Positions 49,447-59,427 of a stretch of DNA of 64,000 bases are shown here, one piece after another. Source of the DNA: Hysterangium stoloniferum. Its lineage: Eukaryota; Basidiomycota; Agaricomycetes; Hysterangiales; Hysterangiaceae. The stretch is from positions 496,001-560,000 of the forward strand of contig WHVD01000011.1 in NCBI GenBank assembly GCA_015178975.1, in the 5' to 3' direction. The stretch's first letter is position 1, and the number at the start of each line of letters is the position of its first letter. The position numbers and the translations under genes were made by a program. The notes under the pieces were generated by a model. That model saw only the letters and a program-made list of their open reading frames with translations, did no database searches and was not told the DNA's origin.

Positions 49447-51205
49447 TCAATTGGTAGCATCGTCAGCGTCAAGAAGAAACTCTTGAATCTCTCCTTTCAT
49501 TTCCTGTCGCCTCTGACGGCTCCCAGAAGCCTGCAGATTTTCTGAAACCCACATTGGTAAAGGAACTTGATGGATTTGGTCACCAAGTGACGATGTCTTT
49601 CGAGAGCCACGGCTGCTACGACTGATGAGTGTGGTGTGGCAAGCATAACATAGGTATGGTGAAAGTAGGAGGCTATCCTCTGTCAAAGTGTCACTTGGTT
49701 CGAGCGGAGCGTCTGTTGAAATTTCTTCATTGTCTCGCAGAGCATTGCGAATCGATATTCGCTCTTTCCATTCCCGTATGCCCGGTTGAGCAGGTCTCGA
49801 ATAATGCAATCAATCCAAGTTGCAGGAACAATGCATGCATATATGTGATAATTCACCTTTCGCAAAGGACGCACTTTTCTCCAGTCGTATTTGAAACCAG
49901 CTTGTTACAAGTTCGTACGATCGCGCTGACAGTGGATGGATAGTCGCGCTCTAAACCGAATATGAAATCTTGATGAAAAACATTAAAATAGACTTCTCAT
50001 GACCAACGGTGACTCACTTGCCTTTCGTAAGACTGCCGATACTCTCTTTGCCATTGCTAGGTGTTGATAGCATTCGTTTATTCCCAATCACAGAGAGGTT
50101 CCGCCAACGCAAATACGCCGCACACTCTTTCATGGTGACTTCTCGTAGAGGTCGCACAAGTCGCACAATCCCTCCATCGGGCGCTATCAACTCCTCGCCC
50201 TTTTCCATACCAATTGTATAACCTGCTCCGCCGGCAACAGCGTTGATGAGACTAACACTTAAACTGGTGAGGCTGGTTCCTAGTACGAGGTGTGAGCAAT
50301 CATGGGCACGTGCGCTACGATGTAAAATTAGTCGAATCAGAGTGGAAATGGCGCTTTGATGTGACGTTGCGGTAGGGAGAGATGAAAGATATGCCTTTAA
50401 CTGATGCAGGGGAGTTGCAGCACTAGGACGCTTCAAGACGGGCAGATCTGTAGCAAATTAGGACGATACAGGTTTTGTGGCATGGACGAACCTTCATTAG
50501 ATAGGTCGACAACAGCGTCATCTCCGTTTAAGAAGGCGTCTTCAAGCCGCAAAGGTAAAAATTCAAAATCCCCCTTATAGCTTTCCAGAGCCGCTTCCAC
50601 CTCTGCGGTTCTATCCGCTGCCTGAAAACGCTTAGTTTGATCTGAGATATACAATACAATTAACACACATCTGGATATGCACCCCCGCACTCGATGTAGC
50701 ATATGATAAGCCGGTTCCATGGTTTACCGCCTTTTTTGGGGTGTTGTTTACCACCTTTACCTACTGCCTGATCCACTGGGGTTAAATAAGAGAGCCTAAG
50801 TAGATCCAACAGCACTGTAGATCCAAGACCTCCAGAATAACCGATAAGCAGGTTTCCGGCAGCCTTCAGGGAGCCTCTTAATGGAGCATTCTCATTTGAC
50901 GGATTGACGGTAGGATCGAGAACTCCACGAAATTTAGTTTTAATGAGAGCTGGAAAACATTCTCTATTGAAGATATGGGACATTGGAGTCAATTTATATC
51001 CTTAGAAACAGGTCAGCCTACTTGCAGTAGACAGCATGTCGAATTATAATGCGACCACGATTAGTTTTGCACTTGATACAGATGCCCTTCTCCGCGACTC
51101 TACGACGTCCTAGTGGCGAATACGAATATAATAAGATGGCAGAGGATATGTATACTCACTAGGCATCACCGACTCGGTAGAATCTGGGGCATTCTCGCAG
51201 GACAT
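49447..51205 (-). CDS. CTU2: Cytoplasmic tRNA 2-thiolation protein 2 (Ctu2/Ncs2)
   Basis: Partner of Ctu1/Ncs6 in the thiolation of wobble uridine (s2U34) in tRNA-Lys, -Glu and -Gln. The start at 51205 gives MSCENAPDSTESVMP; exons 1 and 2 are 51205-51160 and 51109-51022. The N-terminal zinc site is made by CIKC and CKEC around two exon joints. A PP-loop-like ATPase motif follows (LLIGYSGGLGSTVLLDLLRL), as does a late VLGTSLTSLSVSLINAVAGG block. The C-terminal region has a second cysteine pair (KCVLCERP) and a YLCYACHTTL segment, the paired zinc ribbon of the family. It ends at 49447. It is divergent from the fusion gene with 133 bp between starts. Confidence 0.88.
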
Positions 51206-51338: not shown

Positions 51339-54300
51339 ATGGTGAACTTACAGTCTGCTCATAGTCTCCCTACTCCTGCACCAGACTCTCCAATTGCTAG
51401 GCGTCGGCCATACCACTTCTCGACACAGTGTGCTACCGTCGAGAACCCGTCTCAGAAGGACCAGTATGGCTCTAGCTCCGTGCCAATATACCAAACCGCA
51501 ACGTTCAAGGGAATGAACGGAGAGTACGACTATTCGCGCAGTGGAAACCCTACAAGAAGCCATTTAGGTGCGCATTCATGATGTCTTTTGCGCGCTATTG
51601 GACCAAATGTGGCCTTGTCAGAGCACCATCTCGCCAAAATATCCTCTGCTCAGCATGCCTTTGCGGTATCTTCTGGAATGGCCGCTTTGGACGTTATTAT
51701 TCGACTCTTAAAACCTGGAGACGAGGTTATTGCGGGTGACGATTTGTATGGAGGCACAAATCGTCTCCTGGCGTATGTCAAGGACCATGGTGGAATCATT
51801 GTCCACCATGTTGATACCACGAACCCGGCTGCTGTCTACCCTTACATTAATCCGGAGAAAACAGCCATGGTTCTTCTAGAGAGCCCCACAAACCCACTAC
51901 TAAAGATTGTAGATCTTGCGACCATAGCGCGCAATGTACATGAGCGAGCTCCAAATGCCGTTATTGTTGTGGATAATACCATGATGAGCCCATATCTCCA
52001 ACGGCCGTTGGAACACGATGCAGATATCGTATACGATAGTGGAACCAAATATCTCAGCGGCCATCACGATCTCATGGCTGGTGTGATTACTTGCAACCGT
52101 GATGATTTGTCGAAGGTATTCAATTAAAAGTTGTGCTTATTCCTAGCCAGCTCACAAAGGACCTCTTCAGCGCATTGCTTTCACGATAAATGCTTCCGGC
52201 AATGCGCTCACGCCTTTCGACTCATTCCTGTTGCTAAGGGGCATCAAAACGCTTGCTATTCGCATGGATCGTCAGCAGTTGTCCGCTATTCGTGTAGCTC
52301 AGTACCTCGAAAAGCTTGGATTCAAGGTGCATTATCCAGGCCTGTCTAATCATAGGCAAAGAGACGTGCACGAAAAATTAGCAAACGGTGCTGGTGCCGT
52401 TTTGAGCTTTGAGACAGGTGATAAGGACTTGAGTTCCAGGATTGTTGGTAGCACTAGATTATGGGGGATCAGTGTCAGCTTTGGCGCTGTGAATTCGCTC
52501 ATCAGCATGCCGTGTATTATGTCGTATGTGCCGCATTATTCGTTGTTTCGTCACCGCTCATTGCCACGCATCCTCAAGACATGCATCCATCGATGCTAAG
52601 ACAAGAGAGGCTAGGGGTCTTCCGGAAGATTTGATTAGGTTATGTGTTGGTATCGAAGATCCAACAGATCTTATTGACGACTTGGAACATGCTATGGTTG
52701 AAGCTGGCGCTATCACATTACTGGAGGACGGCGGATACACTGTCAACCGACAAGGTGGCATGAAAAGAGCTTTGCAAAAGCTAGAGAGTGCCGCATCTAA
52801 AGTTGCCTCAGACAGTGAGGCTCATCCGTGGTTTGTTTCTGCCCCAGGCAAAGTTATCTTATTCGGGGAGCATGCTGTTGTCCATGGTGTGGTAAGTAAA
52901 TCCTATTGAGTCCGGCACTTATTAACATACGAATCTTAGACGGCGGTTGCGGCATCTGTTGACCTCCGTTGTTATGGTCTCGTCCATCCCAGGAACGATG
53001 GAAAAGTCAGCATTCATCTTCCTGATATAGAGCACTTTTCGCACACGTGGGATGTGATGAATCTACCTTGGGATTCAGTTACAGTCGTGCGTCGTGGCCA
53101 CCATCATGGCCCATCGTTAGACCAAAAACTCGTGGAGGCGATTATTTCACGATCGTTGCCTGAAAGTCTGAAAAGCGAGGGATCTCGTGCACGAGCCGCC
53201 ACTATTGCGTTTTTATATCTATATATGACTTTGGCTGATGATACAGCCAAGTGAGTGAGAGAACTATTTGTAATATTGCACACTTCATGATTTTTTTTTC
53301 TTTTTACAGACCAGCTTGCGATTTTACTGCTCGATCAGTACAGCCTATCGGTGCCGGTCTGGGTTCATCAGCATCGTATTCCACCTGTCTCGCCACTGCG
53401 CTCCTTCTCATTCACCAACGAATCACTGTTCCTCCGCTTCCTGTGCCAACGCGACCTGCCGATCTTAAGCTGGGTGATGTGAGTCACTCGCATGTATCAC
53501 ACCAGGGACGTCGGGCTATTCCGCCAACCACAGCAGAGGAGGTGAATCGTTGGGCATTTATTGGAGAGAAGGTCCTTCATGGTAACCCCAGTGGTGTTGA
53601 CAACGCTGCTGCTGTATTTGGAGGCGCCATTGCGTTCACTAGGGATGGATTCGGACGCAAACCAGGAATGGTACAACTTCAAGGGTGATTACCTTCATTT
53701 CCTTTGTCATTCATGTAGCCTTGACAATTTACTGTAAGATTCAAATCTGTGAAGTTCCTTCTCACCGATTCCAAAGTAGGACGGAATACCAAACTATTAG
53801 TGGAGGGAGTAGCCAAGAAAAAACATCAGGTGGGTAGACATTTCAACAAAAAAACTCCTCTCCTTCACATTACTTTACAATTAGGAACCTGAGGTTGTAG
53901 GAGAAATTTTGGATTCAATCCAGAATATTAGTGAAGAAGCACAGCGAGCATTATCAGATCCTGAACTTCCCCGGTCTACTCTTACATCTGCCCTTTGTGT
54001 GCGTTTAGCCCCTTTTCCCCAGTTTTTCTTGAGGCGAATTAATCAAATAACAGTCATTGATTCAAGAAAATCATGCCCACCTGGTAGCGCTTGGGGTTTC
54101 ACATCCGGCATTGGAGAGTATTCGAAGCACAACAGCCGCTCCCGAGTATGGTCTCAGTACAAAGTTGACAGGTGCTGGGGGAGGGGGATGTGCTGTGACA
54201 CTTGTGCCCGATAGTAAGTGCATTATGTTTGTTTTCTGACAGTCGTTCCTGATCAGTGAGCCCCAGATTTCCCCGAATCGTCTCTGAAATCCCTTACCGA

Positions 54301-54547
54301 AACTTTGGTACAAAAGGGGTATGTGCCTTATATTACTTCAGTTGGCGGGAGCGGGCTTGGCATACTGGCTCCTTATCTACCTGAATCTGATCATTCGCCC
54401 TTCACACCACCTGAGACACCATCACCGGACGGAAGTTCCGATGGTTCAGGAGACGAGCTTCAATCGTTGAGAGAAACGTTTGCAACTAGGTCGCGCGATG
54501 TGTTGGCTGAATGGGCGACGCAGAGAGGAAAGTGGTTGTATGTATAA
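51339..54547 (+). CDS. STR3-ERG12: Fusion: cystathionine beta-lyase plus mevalonate kinase
   Basis: Ten exons (51339-51567, 51622-52115, 52171-52523, 52579-52891, 52940-53250, 53310-53684, 53739-53829, 53885-53998, 54054-54213, 54267-54547) form one frame of 2721 nt and 906 residues. Residues 1 to about 440 are a Cys/Met-metabolism PLP enzyme: AFAVSSGMAALDVIIRLLKP, the PLP lysine in DSGTKYLSGHHD and a MSHASI block. It would cleave cystathionine to homocysteine. From about 442 on it is a GHMP kinase: SAPGKVILFGEHAVVHGV, PIGAGLGSSASYS and KLTGAGGGGCAVTL, the three mevalonate-kinase motifs, phosphorylating mevalonate for sterol synthesis. The join lies in exon 4 with no stop and almost no linker. 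A separate kinase start at the internal ATG (residue 420) is conceivable but has no promoter gap. Confidence 0.88.
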
Positions 54548-54807: not shown

Positions 54808-57104
54808 ATGTCACCAATAAATGGAAACTTGGACCATTTGATACCCATTACTCCTACCCCGACATACCAACAGGCTATTCGTGTTGAATCGAAGAAGAAC
54901 ACAATCCTGCATAGTCATGGTCGAAGACCATGGTACGTGCTTTCATTTATCACAGTAATAAGAAGTATTCAAGTTTCTCTAAAGGTACGGGGAAGACGGC
55001 CTTCCATTTTCTGATGCCTTCGTCATTGGAATTGCAGGTAATTCGTCGCGAGCTTAAGGAGGGATGCAAATGTTCATTTAGACCCTTTCCCTATAGGTGG
55101 TTCAGGCAGTGGGAAGGTGGGACATTTGTATCACGTTGTATAAGACTGCTCCTGAGTACTGTCTTGCATTTATTTAGACACACGTCGCTCAACAGATCAT
55201 TGAATCCTTAGGATATCTCCCCACTGTTGCTATTATCTCACAGGTGATGTCGTCATCTGCTTCTCATAAATATATATATTAATACACCCACAGGACAGTT
55301 TCTATAAAGTTCATTCACCTGAAGACCTGGAGCTTGCATTCGCGAATCAGTATGATTTCGATCACCCCAATGCAATAGACATGCCTTTGTTTGCTTCTGT
55401 GCGTTTTCCTGGACTGTAGACAATGAGCCGCATTGATATCCAGTCTATTATAGTGTTTGAGCGATCTCAAAGCATGCAAGCAAACTAATATACCCGTCTA
55501 TTCGTTTTCGGAGCACCAAAGATTGCCTGAGACAAAATATCTTTATGGTGCTACTATCATTATTGTCGAAGGCATTTTGGTACTTCAAGACCCAGCAATG
55601 CGTGCGCTTTATGATCTCAAGGTCAGCCATGCTCAATGTCTTTATCTTGCAGAATGACATATTCCGTAGATTTTTGTCCAATGTGATTCCGATCTTATGC
55701 TGGCCCGTCGGATTCGCCGTGACGTCCAAGAACGGGGAAGAGACATGGAAGGAATACTTGACCAGTATGTTGGACTATGGTAACCATGTTAATTGGTACC
55801 GGCGATATTCAGGCATGTTACAGGTACCTTCGCTTTGTCAAGCCGTCGTACGATAATTTCGTTGTCCCGTCTTCTAAATATGCCGATATAGTATGTTCGC
55901 GGTCACATATTACCTGACAATTGGCTGAAGTTATGTGGAAGATAGTTCCCGGGTTGGATAATGCAGTCGCCATCGACCTCATAAGCACACACATACGTCG
56001 GAAACTCAAAGAGCGCTGTGTGCACATAAGGCCAAAGATAGCTCGTGGACTTTCGGGCTTTAAGCCGGAATCACAGAATCCAGGATGTGCTATGGACTGG
56101 TTAAACATCACCGTTCTTGAGAAGACACCACAACTAAACGTAAGTCCTTTCCACTCGAAATATTTTTTGAATAACAGCCATCCAGGCAATTTGTACCATT
56201 CTCCGGGATAAGACGACTAGTAACACGGATTTTATTTTCTATGCTGATCGGCTTGCGACTTTTCTTGCTGAAAAGGCTATGGAGTTTCTCCCGTTCCGAC
56301 AGGCGACTGTGGAAACCCCAGTAGATGTTATGGCCGACGGGAAACAGCTAGATGCCACGGTTCGTTCTTAGCTTTACTGTCCTATTAGCATTTCATTCTC
56401 TAGCAGGCTGTATGCGGAGTGTCCATCTTGCGATCGTGAGTCATAACCGACGTTCTTTACAGCATAGTAACTAATTATAAACCAGTGGCGGACCTCTTGA
56501 ACGAGGCCTTCGGCGTGTTCTACGTGATGTTGCTATTGGTTCTCTCCTCATTCAAGCAGATCCTGAAACAAGCGAGCCGATGTTACTGCACTCCATGTTG
56601 CCAAATTCCATCAAGTTGCGCCATCTAGCTGAGACGTCATGGGTTTTCCTTTTGGATGCTCAAGTATGTCTCAGTGCAACATCTATAGAGAATCCGCTTT
56701 TGACAGAACTTATTAGATTGGTACGGCGGCTGCCGCCATGATGGCTATTCGCGTTCTTCTAGACCATGGTGTCCGTGAGGATAGAATAATCTTCATAGCA
56801 TTTATAGTTGCTCGTGATGGCGGGATCTCAGTCTTGCGACAGGCCTTCCCCCGTGTTCGAATAGTCACGGGTGCGGTGGATAATAGGCTGCAGATTGGCT
56901 GGGCAGATAACACAGATGGAGAGGGGAAGGGAAGGGATGTCTGGATAATTGGTAATTTCTCCCTGAGTGCTTACGAGGTAAATGCTAAACATTCCCTTAT
57001 CACGCAGAGCCTGGTATGGGTCAAATAGGTCTGTTATCGCTTTACCTTCAATTTTCATAAATCTTTACTGGAATTATTCTGAAGGAGATAGATATTACTT
57101 ATAG
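54808..57104 (+). CDS. URK1: Uridine kinase with C-terminal UPRT-like domain (Urk1 type)
   Basis: Salvage enzyme that phosphorylates uridine and cytidine; the C-terminal half resembles uracil phosphoribosyltransferase, as in fungal Urk1 and animal UCKL1. It starts at the ATG at 54808. The P-loop (IAGGSGSGKTHVAQQI) is assembled over three exons, one of them very short (GTGGTTCAGGCAGTGGGAAG at about 55,097-55,117). Then come [26 protein letters not shown] and [13 protein letters not shown] of the kinase, and [59 protein letters not shown] and PGMGQIGDRYYL of the UPRT-like part. The usual PRPP motif is altered (DAQIGTAAAA), so UPRT activity is doubtful, as in other members. The final intron restores the GDRYYL ending; stop at 57104. 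Confidence 0.88.
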
Positions 57105-57581: not shown

Positions 57582-59427
57582 TTATTGGGGGGTAATGTTG
57601 TCGTCACTTTCGTCGCCTTTGACGACACTAAGTGCCCAACTACGGGCGAAGCAACTGGCCTAGATGAAGTCATTAGGGATGTGGACATGGCCCATGCGTG
57701 AGAGACATACCTTAAGGAACCGCTTATACGTATATTTCCTGTAGATATATTGGTTTTCGAAATTGGATTCGGCCAGCTTGTCAACAAGCAAGTCGTGTCC
57801 GGGCCTGAGCTGCGCCTCGGTGAAACCGGAGTAATAAATAAAAGACTCGTTCTACATAGATTAACAAGCAGTTACAACATAAGGTACAAAGGCGCACCCA
57901 GTCTCCACCAAGCATCCTTCTAGCGCTATACATTCCGATGGCAGCGATCATGCTGGGCTTGACCCCAAGGAACCTATAATCAAGGAGAGTCACCTCCATA
58001 AGGAACTTGCTCAAAGTCCGTGTCTGAAGGTCATAGTCATCGGCCCTGGAGATCCTGCGGACCCAAGAGTAAGGCGAACAGTACGACGAAATACGGAAAT
58101 CAAGGGTTTGCAGTATTATGCGTTCGCCTTTGATAATCTCATCCTTTTGATAACCATTTTCAGTCATGAACACAAATTCCTCCACGCTGCATGCACGAGG
58201 TGGGCCTTCAGCAAAAGATGGAGCCAAAACCTTGAAGGACTGACCTGGGAGCAAGAATTTCTTCGTATTTGGCAGCAATGAACATGGCCGTAATCCCAAC
58301 CAGCTGCAGCTTAACAAGGCTCACAACCCTTTTTGTGAGAAAGCGATCAATAATGTTAATGGCGATCCACAACGTCTCCGGCAGAAGTTTGTAGCGAAGA
58401 TGGACTTGAAGAAGCCAATCGACAAGAGTCTGTCGCATTTCCCATGTGATCTCTTCCTGCCCATCGACATAACTCTCCCCAGGCATACTCTCCTCCTCCA
58501 GCTTACCCATGTATTCAAATATCTCATCAGAATATTCCGCGACCATCGTTGTGTCGTAGTTATCAACCGAGTCAACAAACTCTTCACGTATACGCTGGAT
58601 TTCCGCACGTGTCTTGGGGGAGGGTGGCGCAGGCCATTTTTGAGTCTGTACGGAAGGCGGGGATTCAGTGGGAGAAAGATACCGGGGGGGGATTGGAGAT
58701 GTTGTTGGAGTCGGTGTCCGCACAGGAGTTCGAGGGCGTTGGGCCGCAAGTAAATGCGTGGCCTCAACGCCGATCATGGCCTCAACCTCTGTCTTGTAAT
58801 ATTCTTCGTCTTCGGAAAGGACGTCTATGCCTGAATAGATTTTGTCAGCCAGTGGTTCCGGCTCTACGACCTGCATGTCAATATCGAGGTCGCGAGTACG
58901 TTCCTCTTGCAGAACATCAACTTGGAGGGAGGTGGGCTTGCTAGCGCCTCCGCCTACACGAATTCGAGTGGCAGGTCGATTTACCAATGACGATGTGGCA
59001 CTTGGGGGTACAGGGACACGCAGAGGACCATTGGCCGCAACGAGAGAAGACGACCGAGAACGCTTGACAACTCCGCCTGCAACCACTTTGCTTGGAACAT
59101 TTAACTCCTAGATACTTTAGTGACAGTGTTAAACTCAATAAAACGCAGGGCACCAACCTTGCGATGATTAATGGTAACTTCACCTAAAGCAGACCGTTGT
59201 GTGCCTGCTGTAACTGGAACTGCCTTACTGGCAATAGGGATCCGCTGAGCACCTCCGGTGTGGGAAATCGAGAGGGTCTTCTGCTTGGTAAGAACGGGGC
59301 CATTCGCATTGGCGTTTTCGTCCGTAACTTTGACCCTCTGCACGCGACGTGCTGGGATCTATATACAAGGAGTTAACAGGATGCTAACTGCATATAAATT
59401 TACAAAACATACTCGATTTGTCGCCAT
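57582..59427 (-). CDS. B-type mitotic cyclin
   Basis: Regulatory partner of Cdk1 at G2/M. The start at 59427 gives a 15-nt first exon (MATNR). An early RSALGEVTIN (about residues 55-65) fits the RxxLxxxxN destruction box recognised by the APC/C. The cyclin fold begins at about 58,470: EITWEMRQTLVDWLLQVHLR (the MRxxLVDWL signature), LPETLWIAINIIDRFLTKR and LVGITAMFIAAKYEEILAPS, then the second fold (SVEEFVFMTENGYQKDEIIK, GERIILQTLDFRISSYCSPY). The last intron leads to a short acidic tail ending ITPQ with stop at 57582-57584. It is the only cyclin in the window. Confidence 0.93.

Follow-up and report, generated by a model that had tools for sequence, protein, structure and literature searches.

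The window analysed here, a stretch of 64,000 nucleotides from a contig of Hysterangium stoloniferum, carries on its plus strand a gene in which a predicted cystathionine beta-lyase and a predicted mevalonate kinase follow each other in a single reading frame. The gene model is a predicted one, with splice sites picked from the sequence together with family alignments. Its features are given below, with positions counted from the first letter of the window.

51339..54547, plus strand: complete fusion gene, predicted cystathionine beta-lyase and mevalonate kinase, 10 exons, 908 aa (splice model and translation)
51339-51567, 51622-52115, 52171-52523, 52579-52891 and 52940-53250, plus strand: exons 1-5 of the fusion gene
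53310-53684, 53739-53829, 53885-53998, 54054-54213 and 54261-54547, plus strand: exons 6-10 of the fusion gene
52524..52578, plus strand: intron 3, the last before the joint, GTATGT...CTCAAG
52892..52939, plus strand: intron 4, the first after the joint, GTAAGT...TCTTAG

All nine introns of this splice model are GT-AG introns of 47-59 nt, a length in keeping with a basidiomycete host though no proof of one. The spliced frame comprises 909 codons including the stop, that is 908 residues terminated by TAA, and the mass calculated for the predicted fusion protein is 97.9 kDa. The initial annotation of this DNA had proposed that a lyase and a kinase are fused here in one frame, and the 908-aa open frame and the matches to both domains bear this out; the rebuilt model also agrees with the coordinates that had been given, with the placing of the joint in exon 4 and with the mass of about 98 kDa. 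The 906 codons originally counted were off by three from the 909 (with stop) of the rebuilt model.

The two enzyme domains and their joint

The spliced protein can be divided into the following parts.

51339..52708, plus strand: predicted lyase part, residues 1-402, exons 1-3 and the start of exon 4 (TIGR01329, 1ibj match, PLP lysine K219 in GTKYLSGH)
52709..52831, plus strand: linker, residues 403-443, within exon 4, with an in-frame internal ATG at codon 420 (52760)
52832..54547, plus strand: predicted mevalonate kinase part and C-terminal tail, residues 444-908 (2r3v alignment)

For the N-terminal half, the NCBI equivalog model for the eukaryotic cystathionine beta-lyase, TIGR01329, scores 545.1 bits for residues 31-402, above its cut-off of 487.5 bits, and a Pfam scan of the spliced protein places PF01053 on residues 33-398 with 432.5 bits. 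The best PDB match of the lyase part is 1ibj (E 7.2e-106), the cystathionine beta-lyase from Arabidopsis, and the PLP-lysine motif GTKYLSGH begins at residue 217. Judged by these matches, residues 31-402 are a predicted cystathionine beta-lyase of the eukaryotic type.

The C-terminal half matches 2r3v, human mevalonate kinase, over residues 444-849, with an E value of 1.1e-65 when the whole protein is used and 1.6e-66 when the C-terminal 509 residues are used. The alignment pairs K450, E653 and D664 with the catalytic residues K13, E193 and D204 of the human enzyme. Three kinase motifs are present as well, FVSAPGKV from residue 444, PIGAGLGSSAS from residue 579 and KLTGAGGGGC from residue 797. 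Both Pfam kinase models pass on the whole protein, weakly in each case (GHMP_kinases_N with 28.7 bits vs a cut-off of 22.3, GHMP_kinases_C with 23.3 vs 21). On sequence grounds we assign residues 444-849 to a predicted mevalonate kinase. The main matches of both halves (PF01053, TIGR01329 and 2r3v) are much too strong to be due to chance.

The joint lies within exon 4 (52579-52891), where the lyase ends and is followed by the linker and then by the first kinase motif; the coding frame of this exon has no stop, compared to 7 and 3 stops in the other two frames. The lyase match ends at residue 398 by Pfam or 402 by TIGR01329 and the kinase match begins at 444, which leaves 41-45 residues in between. 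The GTKYLSGH lysine motif of the lyase, all three mevalonate kinase motifs and the stop-free joint inside one exon had been named in the initial annotation and are confirmed by these results, while its figure of less than 20 residues between lyase and kinase falls short of what the profile matches leave. We considered whether the joint hides an intron or a stop and rejected this: 20 GT...AG pairs (45-119 nt) occur within the linker or shortly upstream of it, none of which has a GTRNGT 5' splice site, the linker stretch has no CTRAY branch motif, and no stop is in frame. A single-sequence fold of exon 4 places a helix in the linker stretch, but with a mean pLDDT of 50.2 it is too poor to interpret.

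A linker of about 41 residues with an in-frame ATG at 52760 leaves room for the product to be two separate enzymes, either through cleavage of the protein within the linker or through a second mRNA that starts near the codon-420 ATG. Reading the linker by eye, we recognised no cleavage element in it, and we think this course of events unlikely. An assembly or sequencing error that joined two neighbouring genes would also give a single frame, and the oddity of the pairing is the one thing that speaks for it; both domains are near complete and are joined within one open exon, which argues against such an error.

Copy number of the two enzymes in the genome

At the DNA level the 3208-bp gene stretch is matched only once in the 111-Mb assembly, and a second copy or second haplotype was rejected on the basis of this single match. 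The search with PF00288 returned three places, none of them the fusion gene, although the spliced protein passes the PF00288 cut-off; a search of the organism's own genome is therefore lossy, and for this reason the kinase protein and TIGR00549 were used instead. With the kinase protein and E values up to 1, all five matches are exons of the fusion gene. TIGR00549 gave seven matches, three at the fusion gene, two at a galactokinase, one at a homoserine kinase and one at ERG8, classes that come from NCBIfam applied to one open-frame piece per gene. The candidate for a stand-alone mevalonate kinase on contig C13 (694-695 kb) was discarded since galactokinase fits it better, with 113.6 vs 46.8 bits on one piece. 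The fusion is, within the limits of a lossy search, the only mevalonate kinase in the genome, and a missed second copy is unlikely.

For the lyase family, PF01053 gave 18 matches on seven contigs. TIGR01329 produced ten rows, where the two best and the fifth (263, 166 and 56 bits) belong to the fusion gene and the next gene is on contig C540 (134, 71 and 25 bits). For the C540 piece a cystathionine gamma-synthase model gives 222.7 bits, more than the 136.1 bits of TIGR01329, the piece on C1 is OAH sulfhydrylase-like by NCBIfam, the piece on C511 has weak matches only, and the piece scanned from C531 has no match at E up to 1e-6. This classification covered one piece each. Of the eight other members of the two enzyme families that were scanned in this way, six resemble other enzymes (cystathionine gamma-synthase/lyase-like, OAH sulfhydrylase, homoserine kinase, galactokinase, diphosphomevalonate decarboxylase and ERG8), one is weak and one is without a match. 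A second cystathionine beta-lyase of the TIGR01329 type elsewhere in the genome is unlikely, with the other C531 pieces, C68 and C223 standing unclassified.

The fusion in other basidiomycetes and its interpretation

The initial annotation had regarded the pairing of the two enzymes as undescribed. It has in fact been published by Liu et al. (2012; PMC3342255), who named it "metC-MVK", and afterwards in PMC4129116, PMC3720577 and PMC3846667; what we cite from these and the other papers below is drawn from portions of their texts. Liu et al. report metC-MVK in 12 basidiomycetes, Ganoderma lucidum among them, and its absence from Laccaria bicolor, and give its average length as about 886 aa, about half of it for each enzyme (PMC3342255). 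They describe it as the sole homologue of mevalonate kinase (K00869) and the sole best hit to cystathionine beta-lyase (K01760) in the basidiomycetes that they analysed, and infer that the fusion originated in the ancestor of Basidiomycota (PMC3342255). The enzymes of animals and Ascomycota are of the same two families as the halves of the fusion, but they stand alone as separate genes (PMC3342255).

Compared by description, the gene in our window has the same domain order as metC-MVK, at 908 vs about 886 aa, and there is no clear difference between them. By the same kind of comparison, GME67_g of Lignosus rhinocerotis is the same fusion at 918 aa, 10 aa longer than the 908-aa protein, and the only mevalonate kinase match reported there (PMC4129116), and the fusion is known from transcripts in Pycnoporus sanguineus (Psang01106; PMC3846667) and as a fused unigene in the transcript data of Pleurocybella porrigens (PMC3720577). 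The 2r3v alignment gives the kinase about 19 residues net more than human mevalonate kinase at residues about 603-643 (about 53420-53540, plus strand), and 7 of 12 basidiomycete metC-MVKs, or 7 of 13 according to the figure legend, are described as having a conserved insertion of 16 aa midway along the kinase (PMC3342255). The extra residues may be this insertion, as compared by position and not letter by letter.

Because the fusion has been reported from other genomes and in the transcripts of two other species, an error of sequencing or assembly in the present contig is hardly credible. The same transcripts carry both domains, which weighs against a second mRNA starting at the internal ATG; cutting of the protein is still compatible with them. 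The fusion is genuine, already known and ordinary for basidiomycetes; the gene exists as observed and has good precedent, which removes a false lead.

We give a probability of roughly 87% to the reading that this gene is an ordinary basidiomycete metC-MVK (STR3-ERG12 type), where one mRNA would give rise to one protein of about 98 kDa that holds two separate enzymes side by side. The present sequence establishes the single frame, the intact domains and, as far as a lossy search reaches, the copy number; a single mRNA carrying both domains is reported for other species only. The N-terminal half would convert cystathionine to homocysteine for the synthesis of methionine, the C-terminal half would phosphorylate mevalonate to phosphomevalonate for sterols and other isoprenoids, and the two, connected by the linker of about 41 residues, would act independently; we infer both activities and their independence from the domain assignments. 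The fusion would have become established in an ancestor of this lineage and then been retained, as we propose, because the sole copy of each activity sits on it.

Some reports count against this reading. Besides the absence reported for Laccaria bicolor, the fusion is unmentioned in the available portions of a paper on Ustilago maydis (PMC4393869) and one on Xanthophyllomyces (PMC7396576), which do name mevalonate kinase, so that either absence of the fusion or silence about it would account for them. The portions seen of PMC9810662 and PMC3852974 also make no mention of the fusion.

A closer tie between the halves would make the protein a metabolic coupler, in which the lyase half senses the state of the sulphur amino acids and adjusts the activity or level of the mevalonate kinase, and the isoprenoid flux follows the methyl supply. 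If true, this would link sulphur-amino-acid metabolism to isoprenoid metabolism in a way particular to basidiomycetes. S-adenosylmethionine is used in the C-24 methylation of sterols, a connection that was counted for the coupler. The two reactions share no pathway intermediate, substrate or product beyond common cofactors; channelling is therefore not expected, and the lack of a common substrate or product speaks against a coupler, as does the Pfam scan of the spliced protein, which found no regulatory domain. The sole point from the literature in favour of the coupler is that the fusion is reported to be conserved among basidiomycetes (PMC3342255); counted against it is the 2013 paper on Pycnoporus, which, in the part available, calls the relevance of the fusion unknown (PMC3846667). 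A tie between methyl-donor supply and isoprenoid flux, as proposed in the initial annotation, finds no support in the present analysis, and we consider a coupler very unlikely. With two separate enzymes side by side as the preferred reading, shared expression and a shared oligomer would be the only direct consequences of the fusion.

Another basidiomycete fusion, FfSpdsSr, joins a spermidine synthase to a saccharopine reductase with one stop-free exon bridging the two (PMC10051792). It is like the present gene in that unlike metabolic enzymes are joined via a stop-free exon; the enzymes are different and no homology is claimed, and it shows that pairings of unlike enzymes occur in basidiomycetes. 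The metC-MVK case seems to be little noticed, as the portions seen of this 2023 paper on FfSpdsSr mention neither mevalonate nor cystathionine (PMC10051792). Among the matches listed in the openly licensed literature (CC0, CC BY, CC BY-SA) we found no functional study of the fusion. Why basidiomycetes keep both enzymes joined was a question in print in 2012-2013, and the portions of text among the matches listed hold no answer to it.

Neighbouring genes

Upstream of the fusion gene and divergent from it, a gene at 50014-51001 on the minus strand carries the motif SGGLGSTVLLDLL and looks like a thiouridylase, presumably NCS2/CTU2-like; a Pfam scan of two of its open-frame pieces gave nothing at E up to 0.01. 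Downstream, a gene at about 54915-55860 on the plus strand looks like a uridine kinase, a 67-aa open-frame piece of it (55454-55657) matching PF00485 with 43 bits. Further along, a cyclin gene occupies 57781-59107 on the minus strand, with PF00134 (Cyclin_N) matching the frame 58208-59107 with 112.9 bits.
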